Shown here piece by piece: positions 30,475 through 63,306 of a stretch of DNA of 64,000 nucleotides; within the stretch, counting starts at the first letter, position 1; each line of letters starts with the position of its first letter. Origin of the DNA: Rhabdophis nuchalis (Eukaryota > Chordata > Lepidosauria > Squamata > Natricidae). The stretch spans positions 377,583,919 to 377,647,918 of the forward strand of contig CM077643.1 of assembly GCA_039707465.1 (NCBI GenBank), read 5' to 3'. The notes beneath the pieces were generated by a model. That model ran no database searches, was not told where the DNA came from, and saw only the letters and a program-made list of their open reading frames with translations. Position numbers and translations under genes: made by a program.

Positions 30475-30497
30475 GTAAGGCTTTCTAATCACTTCCT

Positions 30498-30715
30498 CAG
30501 TGGTGCAGTGGTTAGAGTGCAGTATTGCAGGCTATTTCTGCTGACTGCAGGCTGCCTGCAATTTGGCAGATTGAATCTCATCAGGCTCAAGGTTGACTCC
30601 TTCCAAAGTGGGCAAAATGAGGATCCAAATTGTTGGGGGCAATATGGTGACTCTTACAGAGGGCTGTAAAGCACTATAAAGTGGTATATAATTCTAAGTG
30701 CTATTGCTATTTTCT
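30498..30715 (+). mobile_element. tRNA-derived SINE
   Basis: Begins CAGTGGTGCAGTGGTTAGAG (tRNA-like box A) and has a TTGAATCTCATCAGG box-B region, GGCAAAATGAGGATCC and TTGTTGGGGGCAATATG, ending CTAAGTGCTATTGCTATT. Confidence 0.85.
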
Positions 30716-31271
30716 AATGTCAAACCTATGATAGAAATGCTCTTGTGAAGGTCCTGGGTGCTCTCTGAGCTTGGTAGTTTGCTTGAAGACATTTTGTTAC
30801 CTAGTTGGGTAACGAAATGTCTGCAAGCCAACAACCAAAATCAGAGAATACCCAAGACTCCACAGTACAATCCTGAGCTACAGATATTCTGTTCCATTGA
30901 AAAATGCACATCCCAGAACTGTGACCTATATCTGCTAATCCTGCCAATTACTAATTTACCTGATTTCAGATTGTCTGTTCAACGTCAGACTAACTGCTCC
31001 CCAAAACTGAATCACTGGGGATATAGCATGAAAATATATTGCTCCAGCATAGACTCTCCTGCTTCTGAACAGCTTAGATGTTGATGCTCCTGGTGATGGT
31101 CTCATGAAAACAATTGATCTTGGAATCTTAAGAGTACAAATTAGGGGTGAAATTAACTTACCTTTGATACCGGTTCACAAATGTGAGCATACATTTAGAA
31201 AGCATGAGAATGTTTCCAAAGAAACTTCTAGCAAAATGAGCTGCAGTGGCTTAGAATGCAGTACTGTAGGC

Positions 31272-31454
31272 CAGGGGTCCCCAACCTTTTTTGCACCAGG
31301 GACCGGTTTCATTTTAAAGAAAATTCTGCGGACCGGCTGTGTGGCTCAGCAGTCATGTGACTGGGTGGGCGTGGCCAACTTGGAAAATGTGAAACTCACT
31401 TAGCAATGATCTTGGTTAGCAACCAAACTTTTGGCCTCAACTGTGGTCATAATT

Positions 31455-31529
<75 letters not shown>

Positions 31530-32455
31530 CTCTCTCTCTCTCTTTCTTTCTCTTTCTTTGTCTCTGTCTCTCTTTTTTTCTCTCGCTATTTCTTTCTTTC
31601 TCTTTCTCTCTCTTTCCCTTTCTCTCTTTATTTCTTTCTCTTTCTTTCTTTTTCTCTTTCCCTCTTTCTCTCTTTTTCTTTCTCTCTCTTTCTCTCTTTC
31701 TGTATCTTTTTCTGTCTCTTTTTTTCCTTTCTGTCTCTTTCTCTCTGTCTGTCTTTCTCTCTCTCCCACTTTCTTTTTCTTTCTTTTTCTTTCTCTCTGT
31801 CTCTCTCCTTCATCCGCCCATCTCTGTCACTCTGTGTGCGTGTGTCTCACTCAATCACTCATTCTGTGTCTCTGTCTATCTTTCTCTCCCTCCCTCCCTC
31901 TCTCTGTCTCTCTATGTGTGTCTGTCGTCATCATCCCCCCCCCAGCCTCCACAGCCCGCCTGCCGCGCTTAGTCGCTCGTTTGCTCAGTCAGGCTCCGTG
32001 GCTGGGTAGGAGCCGGGCTGGAGAGGAGGAGGAGGGAGGAGGGGGCAGCCCATTGGGCAGAGCGCGCGGGAGAACGCAGGAGGATGGTGGGGGCTCTTCC
32101 TCCACCCTCATCGATGGAGGGACTCCTGTGCGCCGCCGGAGCAACCCTCCCTACGGCCACCAGTTCCCTCCCCCGCCCACGGAGCCTCCGCAGCCCCTGG
32201 AAGAAAACGAGTGGCCGGCATGCCAGCAGGGGAGGGAATCGGTGGCCGGTCTGGCGGCGCCCAGGAGTCCCTCCGTCGAAGAGGGTGGAGAAAGAGCCAC
32301 ACTCCAACGGTGCGATCAGCCGCGCCTGTGTTCTCCCGCGCGCTCTGCTCAGGAGGGTGCCCCCTCCTCTCTCCTCCTCCTCTCCAGCCCTGCGGCCCGG
32401 CTCCCATCCAGCCATGGACCGGCACTGGTCCACGGCCCGGGGGTTGGGGACCCTG
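31272..32455. mobile_element. 1184-bp hAT-type element with TTTC array and fold-back
   Basis: Ends CAGGGGTCCCCAACC and GGTTGGGGACCCTG, flanked by a perfect 8-bp duplication CTGTAGGC (31264-31271 and 32456-32463). Both ends carry GGGACCGG/CACGGCC-type subterminal motifs. The interior holds a roughly 490-bp pyrimidine tract that starts as pure TTTC (31451-31530), then a GC-rich fold-back (about 31995-32195 pairs with 32215-32410). Long frames here are low-complexity artefacts. No transposase. Confidence 0.92.
31451..31935. repeat. (TTTC)n and degenerate CT tract
   Basis: About 20 pure TTTC units grading into a CT-only tract of nearly 500 bp, inside the hAT-type element. Confidence 0.95.
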
Positions 32456-33906
32456 CTGTAGGCTACCTCTGCTGACTGCCAGCTGCCTGTAATTTGGCAA
32501 TTCAAATCCCACAAGGCTCAAGGCCAACTCAGCCTTCCCTCCTTCTGAGGTGGGTAAAATGAGGACCCAGATTGTTGGGGGCAATATGCTGACTCTGTAA
32601 ACCACTGAGAGAGGGCTATACAAGCAGTGTGAAGTGAAATATAAATCTAAGTGCTATTGCTATTGCTATAATCTTTGTGTCTTAGAGCATCTAACCTAAA
32701 TGTTGGAACTGCATTCATGGAAGAGGCCTAAATTTTGAGCTTCAACATCATTGGATTTTGGATTGACCCTTTTGCAGTTTCCCCAAGATACCTGTTGCCA
32801 GTATGTTTCAATCTGCCCCAAGTTCAATACAACCCAAAATATCCTTCTTAGCTGCTTATCCATGTCATGCACCTTTAATATATAGCCATGTAAGCTCATA
32901 TGACCCTGGAAATTATCTTCAGATAATGCTGGCTACCTCAACCAAGAAACAGAGATAAACGCTGTGCCCTAGAGTTGGGCACGACTAATAGGGAAACCTG
33001 GTATTAGTGTTGCCAGTTTTCAATCCTTTTGGGTATATTCTCTCCATCTGTTTTGCAAATAGGAGCAGCTTGCATAGCATAGCAAAGATCTCTCTTGGGC
33101 CAGGCAAAATATAGAAAAAGCCAATTTGCTGTATGAAATGGCTTTGAACTGTCTAATTGGAGCTGTAGATCAACTACCCAGATCAATATGTAACCGTTTT
33201 GTTGCTGGGCAGAAACATGATGCTTAGTGTTAACAAGCATAATGCGCCCCTGTGTGTGTGTTGACAGCCTCATTTAGGAGATCCAGATATATGTTTGATT
33301 CCTTCCAAACCCTGACAAGAAAAAACTGGGAGCAGTTATTCAGAAGAAAAAGCAGCATCCATCAGGTTCAAACTTTACTAAGCTACCTAAAGAGAAACTA
33401 CAGAGCAATTTTAAAGGCAAGAGAAGGCATACGATAAATAGCTCAGAAGGTAATTGCACAGTGCTTGGAAACCATTTCTCAGAATGATCTGTCAGATCAT
33501 GGGCATTAGTATGAATTTGCTCCATCTATGGCTGTTCTGTAGTTATTTGGGTGACATTTACCACGTGCCAGCAGACTGCAAATTTTGAGCTTTTCATTAG
33601 ATGCCAAAAAATAATGGGTCAGGCAGCATAAGAAATCAGAAGCCGTTCCTGCAGCCAAAATAGCTCACTAAAATCGTAGAGACTGTCAGAAGTAACAAAC
33701 CCAGAGAGAAGAATAATCAAATATGTGGTTTTAGTCCCCCAACTCATTTGGTAGAAAATACTTCTTATTTCTTTGTTACCGCATTATGTTTTATTTTTTT
33801 TTGTTACCATTTATTTTAAAAATCCTTTCGCTTGTAGAGAAATGAGGTTTTATGTAATTATAAAGCATTTTACTATTAGAAATGGTAAAAATTGAGTTGA
33901 CCTTGT

Positions 33907-34150
33907 GTAGGCATCCCCAACCCCTGGGCTGCAACCACTGCTGGGCCATGGCCTATTTGCAACCAGGCCATGGGAGCGGTGGGCCAGCGTGCATGCGCCG
34001 TGCAGGCGTGCACATACGTGGCAGCCTGCCGGTTGCGCAAGTTGAGCTGCACACGGTCATGCATGCCAGCCTGTCACTCTCATGGTCCAGTTCTCCTCTC
34101 CCCCTACTTCCTTCTGCTGGGCCACCAAGTCGCAAGGTTGGGGACTGCTG
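33907..34150. mobile_element. hAT-type MITE, degenerate ends
   Basis: Starts near AGGCATCCCCAACCCCTGGG and ends CAAGGTTGGGGACTGCTG. The interior has GGGCCATGGCC and CAGGCCATGGGAGCGGTG. The target duplication is not clear. Confidence 0.6.
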
Positions 34151-35251
34151 ACCTAGAGGTTACGCTTGGCTAGTAAAACCATAAAACATCCAAATGAAAT
34201 TTCAGGATTGGACATGATTCAAAGGAACAAGTTTATTGGTTTTTTAAATAATAATAACAATGATGTTCCAAAATGTAGGATTTGAACAGCATAACATTTC
34301 TAACAGAATCTGAGTGAAAAATGTTTTCTTTAGAAAAAGAAAAGAAAAGAGTCTACTAATGTAATATTGTTTGTTTTTCAAGAAACGACCCTTTAGTGAG
34401 AAGTTGCTTTCGAAGCTCAGATCTTCCCTCTTGTTCTTGCAGTTTCTGAATCTATGAAGCAAAACACACAGAACCTCCTACACCCCATGAAAAGTGTCAT
34501 GGAAACCTCTGTTATTTTAGACAATAAATGAAACAACTATTTAGCCATTCTCCAAATAATCTCTTAACTTTATTGCAAACATATTCATCTCTTGATAAAC
34601 CGACATTGGAAGATTTTCTCCTCATCCCCTCACCCCCACATTTTATTTTATTTTTTTCATTTCTTATCCATTGAATGAAAATGTATTTGTCAATTTTGGC
34701 TCGCTGCATTAAGGGTTTCTCCAGATGTTAGCTATTGATTGTGCAGCTAGAATGAATCTATAACGAATTAGTTTTGAAGTTGATGCCCTCTAGCGTCCAT
34801 GTGGCATAAAACAAGGGACTGATATGTTTAAGAAAGAGCTGTAAACTGCATTACTGTAAGAAAAGCAGTAACAAGATAAACTCACTGGATGGGAAAGTGT
34901 TAAGCATCTCATTCATCTGTGTTGGTGAGTTTACACATGCGTACAATGACAGACATGCAGTATTCTGCAGCGTACACTGGAAATGCATCTGAGTGCTCTA
35001 TTGATGAGACATTCATTATAGTTTGTTCAGAGGGGGCACTCAATGTATCAGTGATGCATCATTAACTTACATTATGCCTTCTCACCCTTAACCCATTCAT
35101 GGGGAATTTGCCCAGCCATGCTATTCATCTATCCAATTCATTTATCATTTATCCTAGAATTGCTGTTCCTGCTCTCAGCATCAATCCTTGGTGCCTTAAA
35201 AAAAAATCCATAATATACAAACAGTTCTTGTATTGACCCTCATTATTCTAG

Positions 35252-35338
35252 GCAAGAAGATGATGAATTGTATTACCATAGTGATGATGAACTGCTGGGT
35301 GAGGGAGATACCATCAGCCAAGGGTCTTTGAATGCCAG
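35252..35338 (+). CDS. OTOF: Probable otoferlin cassette exon, 87 nt, acidic
   Basis: A segment flanked by an acceptor (cattattctag) and a donor (gtagga). It is 87 nt, a multiple of three. Entered in phase 2 from the exon ending at 30474 it is fully open and ends again in phase 2, so including or skipping it keeps the frame. It encodes 29 residues starting RQEDDELYYHSDDELLGEGD and continuing with a Ser/Thr/Asn-rich end (TISQGSLNA). The acidic DDEL repeats and balanced codon use look coding, unlike the neighbouring intron. It would lengthen the C2A-C2B linker with a strongly negative stretch. From memory, mammalian OTOF has an alternatively used exon 6 at this position; whether this is its equivalent I cannot check. 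The alternative is a chance open segment, which I think unlikely. Confidence 0.72.
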
Positions 35339-35779
35339 GTAGGAAGCTCAGCTATGCCTGGGAGTGACTCAAGTGTGGGGTGTTGTGCTGAAGAAATATT
35401 TCTTAGGGGCCAGGTGTTCCCCCCACCCCCAAGAAAACTCCAGTAATCTTATATCCTTTGCAATTTGCATTAAGTATTCATGTTTTTATTTTTATTTAAA
35501 TTTATATCCCATTCTCTGGATTTTTATTGTGTAAACCTACTGCAGCCAGGGAATTCTCATTAATTCCCCTACTGGTTGAAACAATCCCAACTTGCTTTGT
35601 TCTGTATTGTATTTTGGTTGCTTATTATATCGTGAGATGCTCAAGAGTTCATTTGGAGTGGGGCCACACCTGAACTGAAATCCATCAATCTCAGAAACAA
35701 ACAAACAAAAACAGCAACTTGCAGTGTGGCACCAGTTTTCTTTCCTAAATGTATCTATGTGTTTGTTTATTTATGAGTT

Positions 35780-35965
35780 TGTCAAACATGTACAAGATTT
35801 TAGGATTTAGGATTTATTACATTTTTTAGATAGCAGGTATACATACGAATATGGACATGAATGAAGGAAAGGAATACAAATAAACGGGGACAGTAGGACA
35901 GGGACAGACTGTGTGCTTATGCACACCCCTGAATGGCTGACTATTTATGAGAACATGACATAATT
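35780..35965. repeat. Unclassified interspersed repeat
   Basis: A segment with TCAAACATGTACAAGATTTT, AATGAAGGAAAGGAATACAA and TGTGCTTATGCACACCCC. I recall similar text as a dispersed squamate repeat but cannot name the family. Confidence 0.35.
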
Positions 35966-36131
35966 GCAGAAATTTCTGGTGTGCTTTTGCTGAGCTTTAT
36001 GTAAACCTTTCCCAAAAGTATGCATGATGCAAGATGATATCATGGTAAGTCGATGTGGTAAATTTTAATCTGAATTCCCAGCAGGGAGGGATTGCATTCC
36101 AGAAGAGCAAAAAAACCAGAGAGGTTTAGAG

Positions 36132-36266
36132 CAGGGGACTCCAACCTTTGCAAATTTAAGTCTGAAGGACTTCAGCTCCCAGACTTCTCCAGCCAGCAAA
36201 GCTGGCTGGAGAAGTCTGGGAGCTGAAGTCCTTTAGACTTAAAGTTGCAAAGGTTGGAGACCCTTG
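36132..36266. mobile_element. Palindromic MITE, CAGGGGACTCCAACC termini
   Basis: A 135-bp palindrome flanked by a perfect GTTTAGAG duplication (36124-36131 and 36267-36274). Confidence 0.93.
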
Positions 36267-37519
36267 GTTTAGAGAGTTTGGGAAGAAAAGAGTCAATCCA
36301 GCTCCTCCTTAGGAATTCTCAAACAATGTGTTGAATAGTGTAAGCATTTGCTTTAGTTTGGCAAGATTTCTGCCTATGGAGAAGGAATAATATAGGAAAA
36401 TCCTTAGAATAGCCTCCGTGTGTCTTTTTTTGCCTTTTGGAGCCTGACAGTAGGCGAGGCTTGTTCTGGTACCTCTTGATGATAGAGATTAGATAAGCAA
36501 CTAGTAGGTAGTAATCCACTAGGAAAGAATGATTCCAGATTTTATGTGGGTCCACCAAGGAGCAGTAGGTTTTGGGTGGGGTGAGTTACATGCAAACCAG
36601 AACAATATTCGTGCAAGAAGTGAATTGTTCAGTCTGGGTCCAAGCTCAAGAGAAGTACTACCAGGCACATAACGGAAAGCCTAAGGGCAACAAAGCCTGA
36701 ACTGGGAAATCAGAGAGGGGACTCAGTTCATTCATTGGAGATAACACAGGAAATAAACTTACAGAAGCTAAACAAAAATATAAAGAAAAACACTATTATG
36801 TCCCTTCCAAACAAAACATTACATTCCCAGCTTTTGTTTAACCTTTTGCAGATGATGTTTATTTGTTTCTGGAGTCGAAGGCAAATGTCTACATACAATT
36901 CTGATTTAAGAGCAGACAGCCTCACCCTTAGGGTCTCTTTCCCATCATTCTCCCATGATGAAACTGTTGTTTGTGTACTTAGAGAGATGGTTCAGAAAGG
37001 GCCGACTGAACCAACTTCTATTCCCCTTGTGAATGGCTGCGGACAGAGTTCCTTGAAACTATGTAAATTCTTAAGGATTTCTCCTCCCATCCCATTCCAT
37101 TCTTTCCCACCAAATAAACAAGGCTAAAATGAATTCTGATAGGGATTTTTTTTTTTTAAAAAAAAGAAAGTTGGCTATCTGATCAGGGATGGAATGAATA
37201 GAAGGGAGAAACAATAAGAGAGCAAAATTACACAGATGCCAGGCTTCACTCAAAGGCGGATGGATACAATGCTTCCTAGCTACAAGAATTGTTTTAGAAT
37301 TTATCTGTGTTCCAAATGGGAACTGAGCAAATGCCAGGCATGTCCTCTTGCAGAATGACTGCATTCCCATAACGTACTTAACAAAGCCCGTTTCAATCTG
37401 ACCAGCAAAGTCAACTGCAGTGATTCACATAACAACCTTGGCCAAAAAAACAAAAAAGGACACAAAATGTCATGCAATTTACTTAACCACCTTGCTGAAA
37501 TCCTGCTCTCCCCCTCCAC

Positions 37520-37650
37520 ATCTTTTAATTGTACTTTGTATTTTTATTTGTATCAGAAATATTTATTTTTGTGGTTTTATTACTTTTAATGTTGTAAGCC
37601 TCCTTGAATCGCCTTGAGGGAGGGAGGGGGATCAAATCAATTCAATAAAT
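37520..37650 (+). repeat. Possible LINE 3' tail
   Basis: A T-rich segment ending in a TTGTAAGCCTCCTTGAATCG motif, GAGGGAGG and AATAAATAG, similar in layout to the L2 3' UTRs in this window. Confidence 0.4.
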
Positions 37651-38693
37651 AGCAGTCATAAGTCAAGAACTTTTTTAAATTCAGGTTTTAGGACCTTTTT
37701 CTAGATGAAAATTCCACCCTCCTCCAAAACCTCAGAACAAAACAAGAAACACCATCCCATAAATTCAGAATAACATCAGAATAACATAACATAAGTAATG
37801 GTTGAAAGATAAATGGGTAGCAGATAAGATATATAATGGTAGCTTAGCTAAAAGTTTAAAGGAATCTCAAATCCAGCAGCCTCACAGACAAGTTGGCTTT
37901 GATTAGGGTGGGAACCATCTATGGCCAGGTCCCATATTAAATTGGATTGTCTTGGACTTGAGCTTGTTTAACTTGTTCACTGAGATTGGTTACTGGGGTT
38001 CACATAAGACATTAAACAACAAATAAGTGAGATTTGTACCACATTCAGGGCCACAAAAATCTAACAGTTATTATTAACTTATTATTCTTAGGTATGTTGT
38101 GTGAACGCATCTTCTAATTCTTTAACTGATCTGATCATTGTGTTAATCGTATTTGCAGCTTGGCAAGACAAAACCCAACAAAATAACCCGGGCTGAACAG
38201 GCACCCACAAAAAGCTTTTTGTATGCAAAGAATAGGTGAAAAATGCTTGATTTCAAACACCTAAGCTTAGGTCTACACAATAATTGTCATTTTTCAAGAT
38301 TGGTACTTGGCTATTATCTCCAAGGAATCCTAGAGGCAATATATTTCTTGGGCTAAATTATTTCATAAATGTGAAAATTTATTATTCAGTGGAATCCTCC
38401 CCCATCCTGAATGCTTCCTGCCTATGGAAATATAACATATCAAGGGAAGGATTTTATCATGGGAAATAGAAATTCATTCAAATCTTCCAATTATTTTCTG
38501 TTCTTGTTTTGTGTACAGAATTATTTTTCTGTTGTGCACTATTCAGACAACTTTTGTTACAAAAATCTTCTCTCTACTTGCTTAGCCTTATTTTGCCATT
38601 GTAATGAGGCCAGTGACAAGTGCTGTTCTCAATATTTTAATGCGGGACAAGTTAAGAAAAGCTACTGATGGATTCCCTCAGCTTCATTTCTCC

Positions 38694-39165
38694 TTCAAGG
38701 TGTTAGTTCTCATCTTTAAAGCGCTCCATGGCTCGGGACCTAGCTATCTGCGGGATCGGATTCTGCCCCATACATCTTCCCGGCCGATTCGCTCCCACAG
38801 AGAGGGACTTCTCCGGGTGCCGTCCACTAGACTTTGTCAGCGGGCGACGCCCAGGGGAAGGGCCTTCTCTGTGGCGGGCCCAGCCCTCTGGAACGACCTT
38901 CCCCCCGACATTAGAACAACTACGGACCTCCGCTCCTTCCGTCAGAAATTAAAAACTCACTTTTTCTGCTTGGCCGGCCTAGGTTAGTCTCTACCTCAGG
39001 GGTTAGGGAATGTTAATTTTAAAATGGGGATTTTAGTACAGGGACAGTTGATTTAATTTGTTTTTATTGTATTTATTTATGTATATATTTTATGCTGTTT
39101 TAATTTTCCCTGTGCACCGCTCCGAGTCCCCCGGGGAGAGGACGCGGTATAGAAAAATAAATCTA
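38694..39165 (+). mobile_element. L2 LINE 3' end
   Basis: Truncated at the 5' side at the FKVLVLIFKALHGSGPSYLR segment. The C-terminal tail is open to 38987 (HFFCLAGLG). The 3' UTR has CACCGCTCCGAGTCCCC and the tail AAATAAATCTATCTATC. Confidence 0.9.
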
Positions 39166-40159
39166 TCTATCTATCCTTCTGTCTCCTTCCATCGTGGCCT
39201 GTAGATGAGACCAAAGCAACCTCATTAGGATACAGCACACAGACACTGTTATTGGATCATGATCATGGCTACGATGTGAATAGGGAAACATGAGAATCAG
39301 CCCTTGGTGAATGGTGTAAACTCATCCCTTTTGGCAAACCTATTGTTCAAGAGACTGTGTGAACCCATATCATAATTCAGTAATCAAGTTGAACATATTG
39401 CATGAATGCAGCTAAAATATGGTGGGCCTTTTTCATGGGTAATGGCAACATGTTGATATGATGATCCATCTGTCTCAGTGTGGCTCTTTTTTGTATGTAA
39501 GCAATTAAATATTTTCTCTTTTTAACCAAATGAGCCATTTGTTTTAACTGGATGTATTCTGTATTCATGTCTATATCTGCATTCATGTCTATAAATGGAA
39601 TAGCTTGGATGAAGATGCGGATGATTGTGAAGGGTAAATATGACGTGTGCAGCAATGCATGGAATTTTTAAAAAAGACAAGTAGATATGTTTTCTTGACT
39701 GTCTATGAAACAGCTCTCTTTAGCAGAAGTCCAGCACTGTACATTTTTCTACTCTTTATCTTCTTGAAAGAACACCCTCAGAAATAAAACAAACAAATCT
39801 GTTTTATAGATGATTATAACATCTATATAAATAAAAATGTAAAATAGTTTGTATGAATCCACTAATCTCAAAAACTACCGATCTGGCTCAAATTTTGACA
39901 CAATGTTGCCAAGGACTTCCGATAATAGAATAGCTACTCATTTTGTGCCTAGCACACATGTAAAATGTACCCACTGAAAATGTTTTTACCTTCCTGTAGC
40001 TCCTCCCACCTGGCTGATACGTCATTGACGCGTAACGGCAAAAAACAGCCTTGCGAAGGAATGTTGCCAGGGGCAACATGGAAAGCAATGCATACGCCTC
40101 CCTGTCTGCCAGCACCCGCTCTCTTAGACACACACACACACACACTCGCGCGCGCGCGC

Positions 40160-40575: not shown

Positions 40576-40989
40576 GGGGGGAGGGAGAAACTGACATACA
40601 CACAGAGAGGGACAGAGGGGGAGTGAGTGACAAACAGAGAGATAATGAATGAGAGATCGACAGGCGCACACACAGTGACAGAGCGAAAGGGAGGGGAGAG
40701 AGAGAGACACAGAGAGAATGAGTGAGAGAAAGACAGGCAAACATACACAAACAGAGTGATAGAGATGGGGGAGGAAGGAGAGAGACAGACAGACAGACAG
40801 GGAGAATGACAGAGAAAGACAGAGAGGGAGGGAGGGAGAGAAAAAGAGACTAATGACTTTGCCCACCACTGCATTAGGCACGAGGGAGGGGAGGGAGGGG
40901 GCCTGAAGGAGGTTGACTGTGGGGGGGGAGCAGTCTGGTGAGGGGAGGGATATGTAGTTAGGAAGAGGAATAGAGAGAGAAGAAGAAAT

Positions 40990-41935
40990 ACATTAGGTAG
41001 GTAGGTAAGTAGAGGGATAGACGAGAGGGATGAATACAGCAGGTAGGTAGATAGGTACAGGTATAGAGAGAGAAATACAATACGTAGATAGGTAGGTAGG
41101 TAGAGGGAGAGAGGGAAGAATACAGTAGGTAGGTAGGTAGGTAGGTAGGTAGGTAGGTAGGTTGGTAGGTTGGTAGGTTGGTAGGTAGGTAGGTAGAGGG
41201 ATACAGAGAGAGGAGGAAATACAGTAGGTAGGTAGGTAGAGGGATAGAGAGAGGGAGAAATGCGGTAGGTAGGTAAGTAGGTAGTTAGGTAGGTAGGTAG
41301 GTAGGTAGGTAGGTAGGTAGGTAGGTAGGTAGAGGGATAGAGAGGAGAGAAATACAGTAGGTAGGTAGGTAGGTACAGGGATAGATAGGGAGAAATACAG
41401 TAGGTAGGTAGGTAGAGGGATAGATAGAGGGAGAAATACAGTAGGTAGGTAGGTAGGTAGAGGGATAGATAGAGAGGGAGAAATACAGTAGGTAGGTAGA
41501 GGGATAGAGAGAGAGGAAGAAATACAGTAGGTAGGTAGGTAGAGGGATAGATAGGGAGAAATACAGTAGGTAGGTAGGTAGGTAGGTAGGTAGAGGGATA
41601 GATAGAGAGGAAGAAATACAGTAGGTAGGTAGGTAGAGGGATAGATAGGGAGAAATACAGTAGGTAGGTAGGTAGGTAGGTAGGTAGGTAGGTAGGTAGG
41701 TAGGTAGGTAGAGGGATAGATAGAGAGGGAGAAATACGGTAGGTAGGGGGATAGATAGATAGGGAGAAACATAGTAGGTAGGTAGGTAGGTAGGTAGGTA
41801 GGTAGGTAGGTAGAGGGATAGATAGGGAGAAATACAGTAGGTAGGTAGGTAGATAGAGGGAGAAAGGAAGAAATACAGTAGGTAGATAGAGGGATAGAGA
41901 GGGAAAAATACAGTAGGTAGGTAGGTTGGGGGTTA
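40990..41935. repeat. (GTAG)n array with higher-order units
   Basis: Blocks of GTAG/GTAGGTAG of varying length are separated by a recurring spacer of the type AGGGATAGATAGGGAGAAAT followed by ACA. The spacer recurs about 15 times, so this is a tandem array of composite units, not only a simple microsatellite. Confidence 0.95.
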
Positions 41936-46269: not shown

Positions 46270-46323
46270 CAAACTGTCAGGATTCCAGAAAAAGAGCCAT
46301 AACGGGTACAAATCTGTAGCCAG
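46270..46323 (+). CDS. OTOF: Probable otoferlin cassette exon, 54 nt, basic
   Basis: A segment preceded by an unusually long pyrimidine tract (about 46228-46267, rich in TTTTCC) ending in ccctattccag, and followed by the donor gtatat. It is 54 nt long and phase 2 at both ends. It reads (S/R)KLSGFQKKSHNGYKSVA plus a split Arg, with no stop. This is 18 residues with five Lys, contrasting with the acidic exon at 35252. The upstream DNA back to 46135 is the tail of an L2 LINE, so the acceptor lies close to a transposon edge, but the exon itself does not match L2. An exonised sequence is possible. I favour a genuine, alternatively used exon because of the strong acceptor, phase match and amino-acid make-up. 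Confidence 0.66.
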
Positions 46324-48503: not shown

Positions 48504-48791
48504 TTGTAAAGGATGTTGAAAATAGATGGCTATAGAATTATAAATGGCTGTCACAGATGAAATGTTTCTAATCCTAACCTTAACCTTTTTCGATATCTCA
48601 GCCAGATTTAAATAATTCTCCACGTTTTTATTTTATTTCATACCTCTCCATGCATGTTTGTTTTTCTCTTTCTATCTCCTATGTGTGCATTTGCTGTGGT
48701 TTTCTGAGAAAAACATTTTTGGCAAGCAATAGAAAGAAGTTGGGTTATAAGGCTTCACTTGATTGTTTCTGAATTGTATTTGTACTTTCAG

Positions 48792-48839
48792 AGAAAAAAT
48801 GAAAGGAAAAGAGAAAAAACATCATCATTTGCCATTCAG
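48792..48839 (+). CDS. OTOF: Candidate otoferlin cassette exon, 48 nt, Lys/His-rich
   Basis: Bordered by the acceptor tttgtactttcag and the donor gtagtt. It is 48 nt, phase 2 at both ends, with no stop in that phase. It encodes (R)EKMKGKEKKHHHLPF plus a split Arg: seven charged or basic positions followed by three His. The polybasic composition would suit a membrane-facing linker, but A-rich intron DNA also yields Lys codons by chance. The donor is weaker than consensus at positions +4 to +6. Roughly one in six random intervals of this size would be open and in phase, so the case rests on its position within a series of similar exons. Confidence 0.45.
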
Positions 48840-49541: not shown

Positions 49542-50340
49542 TCTATATATATAAAAGTGAAATGCCACTACCACGACATCACAAAATCTCCAGAACTGTA
49601 AAGCCTACAAACTTGAAATTTGGCATGTATATTCCTCTTGGCTTCTGGGTGCTCTCTAAGAAAGGATTTTTCAAAATTACCATCAGATCATTAGCGTTTA
49701 TTATATTATTATTAACATGCTCTGATGCTAAGGAGTTAGATGTTCTACTCCCCCTCCCAACCAGAAAATAACTCTGTTTCAACTGCCACTTGGGCATGGC
49801 CAGCATGTGACACATCTGGCCTGTAAGATGGGAGTTTGGAGAGGAGCCTGAGGGAAAGAAGGGGATAAGATAGGAGAGGCTTCTGTGGAGCAAGCCTGAT
49901 GTAGAGAAGGGAATAGGATAGAGGAGGCTTCTGTGGGGCAAGTCTGATGTAGAGAAGGGAATAGGATAGAGGAGGCTTCTGTGGGGCAAGCCTGAGGGAA
50001 AGAAGGGGGTAGGGTAGGAGAGGCTTCTGTGGGGCAAGCCTGAGGGAGAGAAGGGGATAGGAGAGGATCAGTGGTGCCAGACTGAGGGAGAGGAGGGGGA
50101 TAGGAGAGGAGAAGCTTCTGTTGGGCAAGCCTGAGGAGAGAAGGGGAGAGGAGAGGATCAGTGGTGCCAGACTGAGGGAGAGAAGGGGGATAGGAGAGGA
50201 GAAGCTTCTGTTGGGCAAGCCTGAGGAGAGAAGGGGAGAGGAGAGGCCGATCATAACTAATCATTAATTTTCAAGCTGTAAGTGTAAATTTATCAAGCCC
50301 AATCACACAGTTTCATAGCGGAGCACAGGTATTCAGCTAG
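49542..50340 (+). mobile_element. Helitron-like element, 0.8 kb
   Basis: Starts TCTATATATATAAAAGTG after an A and ends ATTCAGCTAG before a T, the classical Helitron ends. The interior holds a purine-rich minisatellite (49850-50255). No Rep/helicase. The start closely resembles the element at 39822. Confidence 0.82.
49850..50255. repeat. Minisatellite with 48- and 90-bp units
   Basis: Units contain GAGGCTTCTGTGGGGCAAGC (spacing about 48 bp) and GAGAGGATCAGTGGTGCCAG (spacing 90 bp), almost purely purine between them. Long frames on the minus strand here are repeat artefacts. Confidence 0.9.
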
Positions 50341-51402: not shown

Positions 51403-51644
51403 TAGATAAGATGTTGGGGTTACAATATTTAATCATTCTTTTTCCTCAACTTTATCTCCTTTGCTTATTGGGAGAATAATGTGTACATTCCTGAAGAAAG
51501 AAAAATGGGATTTAAATGTACTGTATATAGCTTGTGGCTGTTGTATTGATATAATCTTCTGAAAAATCCTCCTAGTTTTTTGTTAACTTTTTCATTTAAA
51601 TTTTGGCTTTTTGCTTCCTGCCTGGCTCTGCTCACCCATTTCAG

Positions 51645-51662
51645 CAAGACCAAGGACAAAAA
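51645..51662 (+). CDS. OTOF: Candidate 18-nt otoferlin microexon
   Basis: A very strong acceptor region (about 51600-51644: a long T/C tract with three TGC/TGCT motifs ending cacccatttcag) precedes CAAGACCAAGGACAAAAA, followed by the donor gtaggt. The 18 nt are phase 2 at both ends and encode (S/R)KTKDK plus a split Lys or Asn. Neural microexons of 3-27 nt that depend on SRRM4 typically carry UGC motifs just upstream of the acceptor, and SRRM4 is needed in inner-ear hair cells where otoferlin acts. These two statements are family knowledge. That SRRM4 controls this segment is inference. It could be a decoy site pair. Confidence 0.45.
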
Positions 51663-51865
51663 GTAGGTTTCTTTGTCATAATCTCTGCTTCTCTTTCATC
51701 TAAACTCTGTTCTGCAACTTCTTGTATCATTCGTTAATGGTCAGAAATGGGAACAGCATCTTAGAATAGAATTCTGTGACCTTCATCACTATCGACACAA
51801 AAGGGGGCTCAGTAGATGAGACCTCATTCCCCATATTTTTAAGGGCAAAGAGGCAGAGCCTTGGT

Positions 51866-52200
51866 CAGTGTTGGCAAACCTTTCAGCACTGAGTGCCAAA
51901 ACGGGAGTACACTCATGGGGGAGCACTCCCTGGCGCGCATGCATGGGAGTGCCAGAAACAGGAAGAGCAGTTCCCTGGTGCACAGGCGTGCACCAGGAAA
52001 CTGAGCTTCTGTTTTCCAGTGCAAGCATGCGCACCAGGGAGCTGCTCTTTCCTCTGCTCCCATGCATGTGAAGACCAGCTGGCCAGCTTGCATGTGTCCA
52101 GAACCCAGAAGAGCAATGGGTGACGGCTGGCGTGTCTGGAGAGATGGTTCTGCATGCCACTTCCAGCTCGCATGCCATAGGTTTGCTTTCACGTGCCAAG
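51866..52200. mobile_element. hAT-type element, CAGTGTTGGCAAACC family
   Basis: Starts CAGTGTTGGCAAACC and ends near CATAGGTTTGCTTTCACG. GCGCATGCATGGGAG and GCACCAGGGAGCTG occur inside. The target duplication is not clear. Confidence 0.65.
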
Positions 52201-52536
52201 GTGTAAGGCTGGTATATGTCCAGTATGCTTCATTTCACTTATTCTTTGTTTATTAATCAAATTTATATAGCCGCCGACCTCACCAAAGGCAGCAAACTCT
52301 TGGCAGTGGACAAAAATCAATAAGAACAATAAATAAAAACCAAAAATGTGCAATATTAAAAAAAAACCTTATTAATAAATAACATAAAAGCAAAAAGAAA
52401 ATGTCAGGGGAGGGAGGATAAAAATGCCCACCTCAACAATGAAGCTATTGAACCAGGTCCCTGATCACTTGGGAGCCCCAGATCTGACAACACAGCTAAG
52501 ATATGAGGGATGTTTGGAATACCATGTTTCATTTGG

Positions 52537-52539
<3 letters not shown>

Positions 52540-52567
<28 letters not shown>

Positions 52568-52584
52568 TGTATGTATGTATGTAT

Positions 52585-52623
<39 letters not shown>

Positions 52624-52624
52624 T
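52540..52624. repeat. (GTAT)n(TTAT)n microsatellite
   Basis: About ten ATGT/GTAT units change directly into ten TTAT units, followed by an L2-type 3' tail on the minus strand (ATACCCCGCACCTTCTCC, 52625-52662). Confidence 0.93.
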
Positions 52625-52734
52625 CAAATTTATACCCCGCACCTTCTCCTAAAAAGGACCCATAAAGGATAATAAACTTTTATATTTATAAGGCACAATA
52701 AAAAGACAAGGCATGATTTTATGATCATATAGGT

Positions 52735-52985
52735 CCTCTCAATCAAAAGGTCGGCAGTTCAGCGGTTTGAATCCCTAGCACCACATAATGGAGTGAGCTC
52801 CTGTTACTTAGCTTCTGCCAACCTAGCTGTTTGAAAGCATGTAAAAATGCAAGCAGAAAAATAGGAACCACCTTTGGTGGGAAAGTAACAGCATTCCGTG
52901 CACCTTTGGCAACGAAGATGAGCACCGCCCTCTAGAGTTGGGAACGACTAGTACATATGTGCAAGAGGAACCTTTACCTTTACCT
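52735..52985 (+). mobile_element. Sauria-type SINE, head-truncated and internally deleted
   Basis: Begins within the head (AATCAAAAGGTCGGCAG), lacks the CATGACCACGGAGACG block, and ends CGACTAGTACATATGTGC then CCTTTACCTTTACC. Confidence 0.85.
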
Positions 52986-53429
52986 ATAGGTCCTCTTGCT
53001 TGTACACAATGAATGTGTGAGCCCTAGATTGAAATTATTCAAGTGTGAGTGATCCCACTAACTGTCCAATTCTCAAAAAGTACCACTTTATTTTCCAAAT
53101 CCGCTCTCTTCTGAAATTCTGATGTTTGCTTTAATTTGTTCCAATTGTCAAAATTATCTTTATTTGATTCTCTGTTCAACTAGTCAATTACCCCTAGCTG
53201 ACTGTCTGCCTGTCTACATTTCTACCTATCTACTTACCTATCTAATTTATATATGGGCACATTTCATTCCCAAAAATTTGCATAATACAGTAGCAGAGTC
53301 AGTTTCAGTTGACGGACTGGTTGAATTCCTGATCCTTCTAAATGCCTTTCTATTCCCAGTAATATCACACTAGATCAAATGACTCTTTTTCTAAAATTTG
53401 ACCTAGGTGGTCAAGATAGGACAACGTGA

Positions 53430-53650
53430 TTATAGCAATAACAAAGCACCTAGACTTCTATACTGACCCATAGTCCTTTACAACACTCTCTGAGCATTTG
53501 ACTAATGTCAGCATATTGCCCCCAACAATCTGGGGTTCTCATTTTACTAACCTTGGAAGGATGTAATGCTGAGTCAACCTTGAGCCAGTCAGGAATGAAC
53601 TGCAGGCTTTGGGCAGAATTTGCCTGCAATACTGGACCACCAGGGCTCCT
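53430..53650 (-). mobile_element. tRNA-derived SINE, minus strand
   Basis: The reverse complement matches the SINE at 30498: TTGTTGGGGGCAATATG, GTTGACTCAGC and CTAGGTGCTTTGTTATTGC parts. Old copy. Confidence 0.8.
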
Positions 53651-54375
53651 TTTTGACTGGTCCTTTCTATATCTTGGCAAGAGATGATCTGGTATTTCCC
53701 AAGCATTTTTCCCAGAGAAAACCCCCATGTATACAAGGGAAGGGCCCTCTGTGTCTTTAAGTTTAATATGGATAGACTACAGTGGGTAAACATTTTCTAG
53801 TCCCAAGGTCACCATAAGACAAGCATTCTACATCCAAAGAAGGTTCAAGATCAAACATCTTTCCATCTAATCTTGCACTGTTCATTCTAACTGGCAATGG
53901 CTTTCCAAGAACAATTTCTTTTCCAACCACCTTAATCTTCACTGAATTTGAGGATTTTGTTCCACCCCAAGTTGTGGCTGATTTACAAGCTATCCAGAAG
54001 TGAATGAGTTATTTAGCTTAGAAACCTATGAACCAGCCCTCAATTTTAATCTCTCCTTCATCTCTGACCACAAGATAGATGACCTTTCTGGGATAATTTA
54101 TTCACTTCAAAACATTTCTTGATGTTAGAAAGGCAGATTTAACTGTGAATAATTCATTTCCAAGCCATAATCAGACCCATGCTTAGAATTCATATGGAAT
54201 TGGGGAAGAAGCCACTGTTGGCAGTCTTATGGCTCTTTTTCCACCAAGCATGAATCCTGAGCTCAGATTAATTTTTTTCCCCAAAAATGTAGTGTGGTAC
54301 ATTCTGAACATCTATTTAGGAATAATGGAGCAAACTGATAACAGCCCAGAGACCTAAAAAACAATGGCTCCCAAA

Positions 54376-54744
54376 CAGTGGTGGGAATCAAGTAATTTAA
54401 CAACCGGTCCTCTGCCCTAATGACCAGCTGGGTAGGTGTGGCTCGGTGGTCATTTGACTGGGTGGGCATGACCAACTCAACATCACTCACATCGATGGGC
54501 ACTTCACCTTAGCTGTTACAATGTAATAAGGGTTAATAAGAGAGACAGTTTCTGTAAGGAGGGCAATAAAGATGAGGCTAGAAATAACACCAGAATGTTT
54601 CCTTCCTGCCTTCCATACAGGATTAGCCCTGTAAAGTGAAAAAAACAAAATGAGATTTCTTCCAACAACCGGTTCTCCGAACTGCTTAGAAAGTTAACAA
54701 CCGGTTCTCCCAAATAGGTGCAAACTGGCTGAATCCCACCACTG
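54376..54744. mobile_element. hAT-type element, CAGTGGTGGGAATC termini
   Basis: Ends CAGTGGTGGGAATC and GAATCCCACCACTG (overlapping inverted repeat), flanked by a perfect duplication CTCCCAAA. AACCGGTTCTCC/AACAACCGGT motifs are inverted near the ends. Confidence 0.92.
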
Positions 54745-56064
54745 CTCCCAAACCCAGTTACTAAATCATGGAGACCTCTTCTAAGGCCATGATTTTGGGC
54801 CCTGTGAGGAGACAAAAAACATCGCTAGGAATCTGGAATGGCTGCTATTCAGCCTTTGCCAAGCTGTCTCAGGTGTTGTCATCCAATATTCATGAAGGGG
54901 ATGGTATCAATTCTCTGCTAACACAGCTGTCTTCCTAACTACGCCATTCCTTCCCCTCCGTGCTGTTATTTTTTGGTGGTGTCCGAAAATGGAGGGCAAC
55001 TGGGCCTGAGTTTAATGACGCAATCGTCCCAAAATGGTGTAGGAGCTGGAAATGGACCAGGAATTCTTTTCCCCATCTCAGTAACTTCCTGTCCCTTTCA
55101 AACTACACCCCCCACACTCTTTTTGTGATTGTAATTGTGAGATACAAGTAAAGAAGTCTGATTCTACCTTACCTGGAACAGGTAAGTAGTTGCTTTGATT
55201 TCTTAATCTCTGAAAGCTTTGTAGGAGTGTTTTTCTGCTATGAATGGGTTGGAGAGTATCTATTGGCATATTTGAGATGTCACCCTAGAACAAGATCATA
55301 AGCAAGCGTACTTTCTTGGGGGAAATGTATATTTTATAATTTTAAAAACAGAGGGGGATACAAAGAATATGCCCGAGGTACTATTTAAAGAGAATGATCT
55401 CCTTGACAGTGGTAGCTGATCCTGCTGTTCCAAAAAATGTTGCATGCTATTCCAAAATCTACGATGCTAGATATATATTTTATCTTCAGCAAAGCCCATC
55501 ACTCTGGGGGAAAAAATGACTCTGATGGGCACTTGGCTGGCACATCCTCTGATGCACAGAGTGGCTGTTTTGCCTTCCATTTTTCATGCTCCCTGTATGC
55601 AGAAGTTAATGTCTTTGTCAAACAATGTTGAGCCAACATATAATGCCAAAGAAATTTTTGAACATGGTCTTAATAAGGACCACTGTAATACTGGAGTTTT
55701 CAGAGTTTAGTTCATATCTGTGTGACGATTCCAGGAGCAGACTGTAACTACAGTCTGTCTTTTAGCTATCACTTTCTCCATTTAGCTCGTGGGAATTGAA
55801 TAAGACCTCCCCAGTGTTTGTATATGTAAGAGAGGAGTTTTACTATCGCTTTTAATAGATGTTGTCCGATAACCTGAGGTTCAAAACACCTGACTCAGGT
55901 GACAATCTGCCTTCCACCACCTGCTTTGCCTCTGGAATCCCCTTGTGTCTTCCCATCCTTCCATTTCTCTGCTGCTCACCCAACAATGTCCCCCACCCAT
56001 CACGTCCATTGCATTCAGGCAGATGGTCCCCTTCAGTGTTCTCACGTTTCAAAGGAATGTTAAT

Positions 56065-56094
56065 AATTAATTAATTAATTAATTAATTAATTAG
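56065..56094. repeat. (TTAA)n microsatellite
   Basis: About seven AATT/TTAA units. Confidence 0.9.
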
Positions 56095-56239
56095 CATTTC
56101 ATTGTGCACCAGCTGGTTGCCTTAGGGAAGCTCTTGAAAATTGCTAAATAAACTAGAGTAATAGAATCCCTGAAAACCAGTTCATTTCTTCCCAGTTATC
56201 CCTTATGTTAAGTTTTAGAAGACATACACTCCTTGATGC

Positions 56240-58335
56240 CTAGAGAGAAAATGGAGGTCTACTCGATCTGAATCTGACCGGACACAGGTAAGAGCCCATT
56301 TACGGACTTACATTGTGGTGCTGAGAGTGGCCAAACGTCATCATTGTGCCATTCTCATAGCATCCGCAGAAAACCGCCCTGCCGCCCTGTTTAGGGTGAC
56401 CCGCTCCCTCCTTCAACAGAGGGTGCGGGAAGCCCCACTACAGGGTAGAGCAGAGGAATTTGTGACTTTTCTGCAGGAGAAAATCGCTCAGATACAGAAC
56501 GAGCTAGCCCCCATTGCTGGTCCAGTGGAGTGCCGCGAGGCGGATCTTGTTTGGGAGGAGTTTGACTCCGTTGCTTCCGATGATATGGACAGGTTACGTG
56601 GGCGACTGCGAGCCACCACATGTTTATTGGACCCGTGTCCCTCCTGGCTTGTACTGGCATCCTGGGAGGTGACACGAGGCTGGCTCCAAGAGGTTATCAA
56701 CGCATCCTTGAGTGAGGGTTCCTTGCCTGCTTCCCTAAAAGAGGCTATGGTGAGGCCCCTCCTTAAGAAGCCCTCTTTGGATCCAGCTCTTTTAAACAAC
56801 TACCGTCCAGTCTCCAACCTTCCCTTTTTGGCGAAGGTTGTTGAGAGTGTGGTGGCACAACAGTTTCCCCGTCACCTGGAGGAAGTTGATTATCTAGACC
56901 CGCGCCAGTCCGGCTTTCGGCCCGGGCATAGCACCGAGACGGCATTGGTCGCGTTGGTTGATGATCTCTGGAGGGCCAGAGATGGGGGTTGTTCCTCCAT
57001 CCTGGTCCTATTAGACCTCTCGGCGGCTTTCGATACCATCGACCATGGTATCCTATTGCATCGGCTGGGGGGGTTGGGGGTGGGAGGCACCGTGTTACGG
57101 TGGTTCTCCTCCTACCTCTCTGGCCGATCGCAATTTGTGTTGGCAGGAGGGCAGAGGTCGACCTCGAGACCCCTCACATGTGGGGTGCCTCAGGGGTCGG
57201 TCCTCTCGCCTCTCCTGTTTAATGCATATATGAAGCCGCTGGGTGAGATCATCCGTGGTTTTGGGGTAGAGTACCACCTGTACGCTGATGACACCCAGCT
57301 GTACATATCTACCCCAAACCACCCCAACGATGCCGTAGCGGTGATGTGCCAGTGCCTGGAAGCCGTGCGGACCTGGATGGGAAGTAACGGACTCAGGCTC
57401 AACCCGACCAAGACCGAGTGGCTGTGGTTTCCGGCTGCCCGATTCAACCAGATGATTCCATCTCTGGCCATAGGGGGCGAACATCTTGCCCCTGTGGATG
57501 GGGTGCGCAACTTGGGTGTCCTCCTGGATACCCGGCTGTCCATGGAAGATCAAGTGACAGCCGTGGCCAGGAGGGCGTTTTACCAGGTCTGCCTGGTACG
57601 CCAGTTGCGCCCCCTATTGGATCGGGACGCCCTTCGCACAGTCACTCATGCTCTCGTGACATCCCGACTGGATTATTGCAACTCTCTCTACATGGGGCTC
57701 CCCTTGAGGTGCACCCGGAGGCTTCAGTTGGTCCAGAACGCAGCCGCGCGAGCAATTATGGGCACCTCTAGGTTTGCCCACGTAACACCGCTCTTGCGCG
57801 AGCTGCACTGGCTACCTGTCGTCTTCCGGGTGCGCTTCAAGGTGTTAATTATCATCTTCAAAGCGCTCCATGGCTCGGGACCTAGTTATCTGCGGGATCG
57901 GATCCTGCCTCATACATCCTCACGGCCGATACGCTCCCACAGAGAGGGACTGCTCCGGGTGCCGTCCACTAGACTTTGTCAGCGGGCGACGCCCAGGGGA
58001 AGGGCCTTCTCTGTGGCGGGCCCAGCCCTCTGGAACGACCTTCCCCCCGATATTAGGACAACCACGGACCTCCGCTCCTTCCGCTTAAAATTAAAGACAC
58101 ACTTTTTTCGCCTGGCCGGCCTTGGGTAGTCTCTTTTTAGGTTAGGGGTTTTTAGGGGTAATTTTTAGTTTAGTATATGGGTTTTAGCGCAGGAATAATT
58201 TAATTTACTTTTAATTTTGTAGTTTGTATTCTGTACTTTGTTCTTTGTATTTTTAATTGCCTGTGCCCCGCCTCGAGTCCCCTTGGGGAGAGAGAGCGGG
58301 CTATAAAATTAAATTATTATTATTATTATATATAT
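56240..58335 (+). mobile_element. L2 LINE, 5'-truncated, open RT
   Basis: The L2 sequence starts near 56240 and runs through the complete RT and C-terminal domains, then a 3' UTR with CCCGCCTCGAGTCCCC and an ATT-type tail. The endonuclease region is missing, as in most truncated LINE insertions. Confidence 0.93.
56315..58129 (+). CDS. L2 ORF2 fragment: reverse transcriptase and C-terminal domain
   Basis: 604 codons are open to TAG. The first codon of the listed range is GTG inside a frame open from about 56250, so it is not a true start. RT motifs are intact: NYRPVSNLPFLAK (about 162-174), SGFRPGHSTETA (199-210), LLDLSAAFDTIDH (232-244, motif A), PQGSVLSPLLF (292-302, motif B) and YADDTQLY (323-330, catalytic). 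The tail HWLPVVFRVRFK ... IRSHREGLLRVP ... FSVAGPALWNDLPP is typical of the L2 clade. The endonuclease is missing, so it cannot move by itself. The open frame suggests a recent insertion. It is a transposon gene within the OTOF intron, same strand. Confidence 0.92.
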   Translation: MVLRVAKRHHCAILIASAENRPAALFRVTRSLLQQRVREAPLQGRAEEFVTFLQEKIAQIQNELAPIAGPVECREADLVWEEFDSVASDDMDRLRGRLRATTCLLDPCPSWLVLASWEVTRGWLQEVINASLSEGSLPASLKEAMVRPLLKKPSLDPALLNNYRPVSNLPFLAKVVESVVAQQFPRHLEEVDYLDPRQSGFRPGHSTETALVALVDDLWRARDGGCSSILVLLDLSAAFDTIDHGILLHRLGGLGVGGTVLRWFSSYLSGRSQFVLAGGQRSTSRPLTCGVPQGSVLSPLLFNAYMKPLGEIIRGFGVEYHLYADDTQLYISTPNHPNDAVAVMCQCLEAVRTWMGSNGLRLNPTKTEWLWFPAARFNQMIPSLAIGGEHLAPVDGVRNLGVLLDTRLSMEDQVTAVARRAFYQVCLVRQLRPLLDRDALRTVTHALVTSRLDYCNSLYMGLPLRCTRRLQLVQNAAARAIMGTSRFAHVTPLLRELHWLPVVFRVRFKVLIIIFKALHGSGPSYLRDRILPHTSSRPIRSHREGLLRVPSTRLCQRATPRGRAFSVAGPALWNDLPPDIRTTTDLRSFRLKLKTHFFRLAGLG

Positions 58336-58434
58336 TATTATGATGTCATTTTTTTCCCCTACGAAACCTTTGGTTTAATTCCAGATGGCACATTTCCTTG
58401 TGAAAGGCCCATCAGGTTTACTAGGTTTTCCAGT

Positions 58435-58615
58435 AATGGGGAGGCCATTTCCACCCTCCCAGAGGCTCGTCGAATGCCTCCGGAGCCCAGGGAGGGCAAA
58501 AACGCCCTCCCCCACGGGGTGATGCAGGAGACTGACTAGGCCATGCCACCATGGCCATGCCCACCCAGCAACCGGGCAGAGAACCCCTTGCTAAAATTTT
58601 GGAAGCCCACCCCTG
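58435..58615 (-). mobile_element. hAT-type fragment, CAGGGGTGGGC family, minus strand
   Basis: The reverse complement starts CAGGGGTGGGCTTCCAAAAT and contains AGGGGTTCTCTGCCCGG and GGCATGGCCATGG. Same family as 24435-24757. Confidence 0.6.
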
Positions 58616-60093
58616 GTTACATGCACATGTAGCCTGCCAATCCTTAGTATAAACAGGAGTTTCTTTTCATAGAATCCTACAAGTAAGGAAAGGCAGAGCC
58701 TAGGAAATTAATTAGTCAAATCTGTTGCATAATGCCATAGTCTACTATTATAGCATCCTCAACAGATTCAGCTTCTGTACAACACTATACAACACTGTAG
58801 CGAAGGGGAGTATATTTCTTTCCAAGGCAGTCTGTTCCACTGTTAAACCATTCGGTTAAGATTTTTTTTTTCCGGATATCCAACCAAAATCTACATTTTT
58901 GTAATTTAAAATTTAAATTACATTATTTCATGTCCATTTTCTTTCACAGCAAAATTGCCATGGATTATGTATGCTATGGCCAAATAGAAGGCAGCAGACT
59001 GAGGAAGCTTGATTTAAAATAATACAGTCTGCCTGCCTTCATGCCTCCCTCCCTCTCTTTTCAGCCAATTGCACAGCTTTCCTAATTTGTCCGTTTTCCA
59101 AAAACATTAGCCCTATTAATTAATTAATGAGGCTAAAAAATCTACTCGGTTCTTTTGGCGTTTTTGGAGTTGGAAGAGTTTATAGAATAAATCAAGTACC
59201 TCTTGCCTTAATCCCCTGAATTCATCCTCAAATAAGTTTGAATCCCAGCTTCTTCCCATCTTTGGACTATGGTTAAGGGAGGATAATGGGTGATAGCCTT
59301 ACAGCTTTTGTGGCTCTCTATATATTTCAAGATGTCAAGATGCAGATGATACAGAACTGGAAACAATGGCTAAAGGTCCAGTAGAAGATAATATCAATAA
59401 CTTAAGACTGAACTGTGGAATCCTTGGTGCCCTAGGAGGTTGGTTGTTTGGTTCTAGGTATTCATTACCCAACTAGATAACATCATCAATGCCATTTTAG
59501 ATGGGGTTTGCTTCATGTTTATGTAGTTAACTAACAAGGACCCCACCAACACAGGCAGGGCAAATTACTGAATATAAACAGGGAGCAAACCCTACACTCA
59601 CAATCACGGAAGATATTACATACTTGCATAACATCTACATACACAAAAACTAGCTCAGATTCCACAATTGCTAAAGGCCAGGAAAATTCATGCCAACACA
59701 ATATGAATAATGGCAGTCCATTTGAAGCTCTGGTTATGGACATGGCATATGTGTGAAATACCTACTAGTGCCAATAAATATATTTTATGCTTGGAAAACA
59801 GCCATTGTGTGTCTTATAAAATTGGTTGGATGAAAACTTCTCATTGAGAATTAAATATGTTTATATTTTCTTGAGACAACTTTTCAGTGGTTTATCCCAA
59901 ACTACAACAAATTCTAAGGAAGAGCAATGCATTTGCTCATATTTTTCTCTTGTTTCCTTTCCCTCACTCTCTCCTTTATTTGTCTTTCTCCTCAGTTTGT
60001 CTCTCAACTGCTTCTTGGGGAAGGGATCTTCCTTTTTGGCTTATGATCTGAGAAGGCATAACGATGTTCATAATGTATCTACTTTCTTTACAG

Positions 60094-63069: not shown

Positions 63070-63306
<237 letters not shown>

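Follow-up and report, generated by a model that had tools for sequence, protein, structure and literature searches.

The OTOF locus and four candidate segments

The window, which is the whole 64,000-nucleotide stretch of Rhabdophis nuchalis DNA analyzed here, carries ordered otoferlin-coding exons on one strand, and the gene is OTOF. Using a human OTOF sequence (1997 aa) as a tblastn query, we recovered residues 47 to 1937 collinearly, though with gaps, from the window plus 100 kb beside it; residues 1-46 and 1938-1997 had no match in the same DNA. Exon numbers (5, 6, 7) follow from the order of the human residues. All of the exons considered here lie on the + strand. The exon 5 equivalent (30293..30474), found with human residues 107-179, encodes the end of C2A and the first, acidic half of the linker between C2A and C2B, terminates in FRR at the border AG|gtaagg, and ends in phase 2. 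The exon 7 equivalent (60094..60170) picks up the split codon AG|A, reading R-AGRGVFSAMKLGK, supplies the second, basic half of this linker, AGRGVFSAMKLGKTRPSKDDPHRKQ, and contains an in-frame methionine (VFSAMKLGK). The same search located the exon 4 equivalent (27614..27713), the exon following that of exon 7 (61585..61711), an exon for the linker end and the start of C2B (62143..62197), and a further C2B exon (63133..63264), the borders of these four being tentative and set at the best-scoring nearby sites. Between the exon 5 and exon 7 equivalents, which join in phase 2, lies an intron of 29.6 kb, and the net charge of the linker changes from -5 on the exon 5 side to +5 on the exon 7 side.

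Four short segments of this intron, all on the + strand, had been singled out in a preliminary description: c87 (35252..35338; 87 nt, 29 residues, QEDDELYYHSDDELLGEGDTISQGSLNA), c54 (46270..46323; 54 nt, 18 residues, SKLSGFQKKSHNGYKSVA), c48 (48792..48839; 48 nt, 16 residues, REKMKGKEKKHHHLPF), and c18, a candidate microexon (51645..51662; 18 nt, 6 residues, SKTKDK with split codon K). We verified for each of them that AG/GT borders flank it, that its length is a multiple of three, and that it reads open in phase 2. Since all joins are in phase 2, each segment could be retained or left out with the frame intact, and the junction codons, read by eye as AG+G, AG+C, AG+A, and AA+A, yield no stop in any of the 16 combinations; the proposed 16 in-frame combinations, with up to 69 added residues (29+18+16+6), thus hold. 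The charges had been described as alternating, which is wrong, as one acidic segment (c87, -8 counting the trailing split-codon R) is followed by three basic ones (c54, +5; c48, +4; c18, +3). A single match in the snake's own genome was found for c87 and for c54. Repeats overlap none of the four segments within the window and do overlap the flanks of c54, c48, and c18.

Pfam returned no family for three linker peptides, and a PDB search with the linker gave weak, unrelated matches alone (best E 0.61). The exon 5 peptide, compared with a protein database, yielded four candidates and no hit, and pattern scans of two contig collections, one viral and one of genomes, gave 5 and 29 matches, respectively, with no confirmed relative among them.

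Splice signals, codon usage, and peptide composition against controls

The splice scores of all four segments fall inside the range at sites adjoining the other OTOF exons, a comparison set made up of the best-scoring sites near exons and including a few that are clearly false. Nine in-frame candidates (9-200 nt, both splice scores at least 5.5) occur on the + strand of the intron, and by summed score c87, c54, and c18 rank first, second, and third among them and c48 sixth. Under the same criteria this strand holds 10 out-of-frame controls with a length remainder of 1 and 10 with a remainder of 2, and the antisense strand holds 6 in-frame candidates, two of which outscore c87 and every other + strand candidate. 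At a summed score of at least 14.3, the intron has three candidates on each strand, compared with 3.6 (+) and 2.4 (-) per 29.6 kb in other OTOF intronic and flanking DNA and a mean of 6.6 in an order-3 Markov null. That splice borders and frame set these segments beyond chance was not borne out: per kilobase, such candidates are equally dense on the antisense strand and in the remaining introns of OTOF. We rejected splice score combined with frame as proof of exons, because control introns, antisense, and Markov sequence give as many such segments or more.

In codon usage, c87, c54, and c48 were indistinguishable from open intronic windows, of which 16%, 23%, and 76%, respectively, match or exceed their codon scores; c48 has both the lowest splice sum and the lowest codon score of the four. 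The codon score of c18 stands out, with 0.45% of open intronic windows as high, a figure that rests on six codons.

Peptide composition was more distinctive. With a combined statistic for charge and low hydrophobicity and a cut of p<=0.03, both picked after the peptides were seen, 4 of the 9 in-frame candidates qualify, and these are exactly c87, c54, c48, and c18, versus 2 of 60 controls (Fisher 0.0019). Relaxing the cut to <=0.05 gives 4/9 versus 6/60 (0.021), and to <=0.1 gives 5/9 versus 10/60 (0.019); a rank test gives 0.022. A net charge as low as that of c87 is seen in 0.11% of open windows. Overall, we judge c87 to be the best supported of the four segments and c48 the weakest.

Relation to mammalian OTOF exon 6

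Mammals splice exon 6 of OTOF alternatively (PMC7768390; PMC10394277), and by exon order we infer that its site is the same junction as the one studied here, so that the idea of alternative splicing at this linker position fits what is reported in mammals. The intron after exon 5 would then correspond to the exon 6 site of mammals. All four segments lie between the exon 5 and exon 7 equivalents with symmetric phase 2, as expected of a counterpart of mammalian exon 6, and the position of an in-frame insertion between C2A and C2B, after the fifth coding exon, would be shared. Mouse otoferlin is given as 1992 residues (PMC7768390), and a mouse cochlear cDNA encodes 1977 (PMC6328916); the difference of 15 residues is the gain expected from a 45-nt phase-2 exon. 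By this arithmetic the cochlear cDNA is without the insert, so that its inclusion is not necessarily characteristic of hair cells. The mouse has one exon of 15 residues, whereas the snake may have as many as four, with candidate lengths of 29, 18, 16, and 6 residues and an acidic peptide among them, and none of the four (87, 54, 48, or 18 nt) has the 45-nt length of mammalian exon 6.

We slightly favor the reading that the intron, at the position corresponding to the exon 6 site of mammals, contains two or more genuine cassette exons that keep the frame, namely c87 and one or more of the basic segments; that all four are real cassettes is unlikely. What would be new is several candidates at an alternative-splicing site that is already known, where mammals are reported with one. 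Among the papers listed in our literature searches, no title or opening of an abstract describes a reptile with several OTOF linker exons, and queries with the segment peptides found no paper. The 10 papers listed, of 1,456, for optional small exons of otoferlin in reptiles do not contain the word otoferlin. OTOF exon 6 goes unmentioned in the available portions of PMC10018040 and PMC12528612, and the exon 6B that appears in the latter belongs to Brip1.

The intron may instead hold one real cassette, either c18 or c48, corresponding to mammalian exon 6, the other three segments being open by chance, which we consider rather unlikely. This reading draws on the mouse exon 6 peptide, presumed here to be SKGREKTKGGRDGEHK, which is basic, as are c54, c48, and c18. 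The best local match to it on the + strand is c48, with 0.18% of 2278 segments (both strands) scoring equally high, and c18 has both of its ends (SK...K), a property of 5 of the 2278 open AG..GT segments, c18 included. A background of about three candidates per 29.6 kb at a summed score of at least 14.3 also leaves room for chance segments. Yet in 16 of 200 trials a shuffled version of this peptide matched one of the four segments equally well, which means that part of the c48 match is due to composition; the mouse sequence itself is a presumed one, and the charge enrichment spans all four segments rather than one. We regard the resemblance to the mouse peptide as no more than a lead.

It is quite improbable that all four are chance pseudo-exons of a long intron. 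Segments that are in frame and bounded by splice sites are just as dense in control introns and on the antisense strand, and denser in Markov sequence, and codon usage does not set three of the four segments apart, all of which such an origin would lead one to expect; against it stand the enrichment in charge and low hydrophobicity (4/9 versus 2/60) and the alternative splicing, by exon order, of this very site in mammals.

Least probable by far is that some of the exon-like sequence represents alternative starting exons for a shortened otoferlin, as with the mouse inner ear transcript that starts from exon 6b and is predicted to encode a protein without the first 192 residues (PMC10227054): the methionine in exon 7 would suit such a start, but a first exon can do without an acceptor, a length that is a multiple of three, or an open phase-2 frame, features that all four segments possess. 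The mouse isoform resembles the case here as an alternative OTOF RNA arising near the junction, and differs in that an alternative start removes C2A, whereas the segments, as cassettes, would lengthen the linker.

Linker design and comparison with other spliced systems

Hair cells depend on otoferlin to release transmitter at their ribbon synapses, and the gene is a target of gene therapy. The insertion point lies at the transition of the linker from acidic (exon 5) to basic (exon 7), so that, under the favored reading of at least two cassettes, c87 would extend the acidic arm and the other three the basic arm. We infer use of the segments in RNA, its regulation, and an effect on the protein: inclusion would alter the length and charge of this flexible linker, and might plausibly change the way C2A is held relative to C2B or the contacts of the linker with membranes and partners.

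The acidic-then-basic order of the four segments resembles the layout modeled for ferlin A-B linkers, an acidic helix followed by a basic helix (PMC9333456). In dysferlin, the optional exon 5a adds 31 residues in the A-B linker (PMC9333456), and it is like c87 in being an optional in-frame insert at this place in a ferlin (31 versus 29 residues), although it sits in another gene. Because of this precedent the idea of an optional linker exon is not wholly new.

That squamate OTOF has an enlarged set of four cassettes, one an 18-nt microexon, at the site of the single alternative coding exon known from mammals is doubtful. If true, hair cells and neurons could pick among up to 16 linkers with net charges from clearly acidic to clearly basic, which would make splicing a dial for the ribbon-synapse calcium sensor. 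Should reptiles turn out to use several linker exons and mammals one, their comparison would reveal the role of the linker and the isoform features that matter. The present yield is a short, ranked list of directly testable splice junctions.

A TGC lies upstream of c54 (at -13) and of c18 (at -16) and is absent for c87 and c48. We rejected this TGC/UGC motif as proof of SRRM4 control, as it is near background, occurring at 32-35% of strong acceptors in the intron; the comparison with SRRM4-dependent exons is tempered by its presence at about a third of such sites. A pyrimidine-rich tract is found upstream of c54. The intron downstream of c18 is CU-rich, and in this flank and its length of 18 nt, c18 resembles the SRRM4-dependent exons of hair cells and neurons.

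Candidate exons in the OTOF linker intron

On the + strand of the window, match to a human OTOF (otoferlin) sequence places exons at ~27614-27713, 30293-30474, 60094-60170, 61585-61711, 62143-62197, and 63133-63264, and the gene continues in order, with gaps, over 80 kb downstream, up to residue 1937 of 1997 of this human query. The contig that contains the window is 411 Mb long, and the assembly totals 1.92 Gb. Reading of the sequence bears out the phase-2 join of the exon 5 and exon 7 equivalents (30474 to 60094), which reads FRR|AGRGVFSAMKLGK across a 29.6-kb intron within the C2A-C2B (A-B) linker. Four segments of this intron, named by length in nucleotides as c87 (35252-35338), c54 (46270-46323), c48 (48792-48839), and c18 (51645-51662), have the borders, lengths, and open frames assigned to them in the preliminary description. 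Their joins create the codons AGG, AGC, AGA, and AAA, which keeps each of the 16 combinations open. By judgement rather than computation, we regard c87 as probably a real exon, give c54 and c18 an even chance each, and hold c48 to be possible, with the balance slightly against it. These candidate linker exons are worth checking with RNA.

Splice borders and frame, and what chance supplies

Candidate pairs had to score 5.5 or more at both acceptor and donor and span 9-200 nt. The + strand of the intron holds 82 such pairs; open pairs number nine in frame, 10 with a length remainder of 1, and 10 with a remainder of 2. The - strand has six in-frame open candidates, two of which score above c87. 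At a summed score of at least 14.3, counts per 29.6 kb are three on each strand of the intron, vs. 3.6 (+) and 2.4 (-) elsewhere in the introns and flanks of OTOF (123 kb), and an order-3 Markov null yields a mean of 6.6 candidates, with at least three in 96% of 150 simulated introns. The borders and frame of the candidates are thus no more than chance provides. The four-exon series first described is correct as a description of sequence, but is not proven as a series. By splice score, c87, c54, and c18 are the top three of the nine + strand candidates and c48 is sixth. Compared with open windows, codon usage lends no support to c87, c54, or c48 as exons; c18 stands apart (0.45% of windows reach its score), but has only six codons.

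Both c87 and c54 match the genome once each, at their own locus (match counts are lower bounds), and all four candidates are clear of the repeats in the window. Repeats elsewhere include a minisatellite between c48 and c18 (49845-50246; ~8.6 copies of a 48-bp unit), which may make the intron length-variable; a 1.3-kb run of tandem arrays that overlap, built of GTAG and similar units, between c87 and c54 (40594-41924), in a 4-kb bin of GC skew 0.28; and a perfect (ATAGAT)27.5 array at 2617-2781. An element repeated on both strands (12022, 13463, 18562, 20792, 23225, 38840, 45781, and 57982), with a similar peptide in its copies (like GGRSFQRAGPATEKALPLG), surfaced as spurious weak tblastn matches to the linker.

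Charge of the candidate peptides

Each of the nine in-frame candidates was scored, relative to open windows of equal length, for being charged and poor in hydrophobic residues, and so were 60 control candidates: six from the antisense of the intron and 54, on both strands, from other introns and flanks. At p<=0.03, four of nine pass, exactly the four described initially, vs. two of 60 controls (Fisher 0.0019); the counts are 4/9 vs. 6/60 at p<=0.05 (0.021) and 5/9 vs. 10/60 at p<=0.1 (0.019), and a rank test gives 0.022. This enrichment supports the four candidates, as moderate evidence, because the earlier remark about charge prompted the statistic, and the values were known when the cut of 0.03 was picked. 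Of open 87-nt windows, 0.11% have a net charge of -7 or lower, -7 being the value for c87 when its leading split-codon R is counted.

The charges do not alternate, as had been proposed, but run acidic (c87, -8) then basic (c54, +5; c48, +4; c18, +3). Net charge is -5 for the exon 5 part of the linker and +5 for the part from exon 7, and thus the insertion point is the border of acidic and basic arms. The candidates retain the acidic-then-basic order of the helices modelled for ferlin A-B linkers, where dysferlin exon 5a adds 31 residues (PMC9333456). Each included segment would add length and charge to one of the two arms, and might change C2A placement or membrane or partner contact.

Mammalian exon 6 and other OTOF exons

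By exon order, the site of the candidates is already known for alternative splicing: we infer from that order that the 29.6-kb intron is the exon 6 site, and exons 6, 31, and 47 are alternatively spliced according to two reviews (PMC7768390, PMC10394277). Mouse otoferlin is given as 1992 (PMC7768390) or 1977 residues (PMC6328916), 15 apart, the latter being the form reported from mouse cochlea (PMC6328916). Since the 1977-residue form comes from cochlea, the insert, whose absence follows from arithmetic on the two lengths, is at least not constant in mouse hair cells.

Either c18 or c48 could be the counterpart of mouse exon 6. We take the mouse insertion to be SKGREKTKGGRDGEHK in place of one R, which gives the required +15. 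Among 2278 open AG..GT segments (12-120 nt, both strands), c48 is the best + strand match to this peptide and 0.18% score as high; one of the four matches its shuffles as well in 16/200 trials. With split codons counted, c18 agrees with the mouse peptide at its first two positions and at its final one, a match that 5/2278 segments show.

Loss of SRRM4 deafens mice (PMC3464207). TGC lies upstream of c54 (at -13) and c18 (at -16), and the CU-rich flank downstream of c18 has 10 motif matches in 80 nt (1.6% of windows reach that); SRRM4 control of c54 and c18 is a possible hypothesis only, because a third of strong acceptors in the intron share the TGC.

In a DNA stretch downstream of the window (L006, ~2804-2863), two AG acceptors lie 60 nt apart at exon 31, the downstream one scoring 11.0, and the 20-residue optional stretch of this exon seems to be present; the longer form reads A-KLMNAYVTLANGGPYSHPT ahead of GEIVV. 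Human OTOF presumably has RLLRRCRVLCNGGSSSHST here, of the same length, in which RRCR is probably the RXR, whereas the stretch in this gene is without an RXR-type motif. Exon 7 (60094-60170) contains an in-frame Met (VFSAMKLGK) that could, by analogy with the mouse exon 6b isoform, start a short otoferlin.
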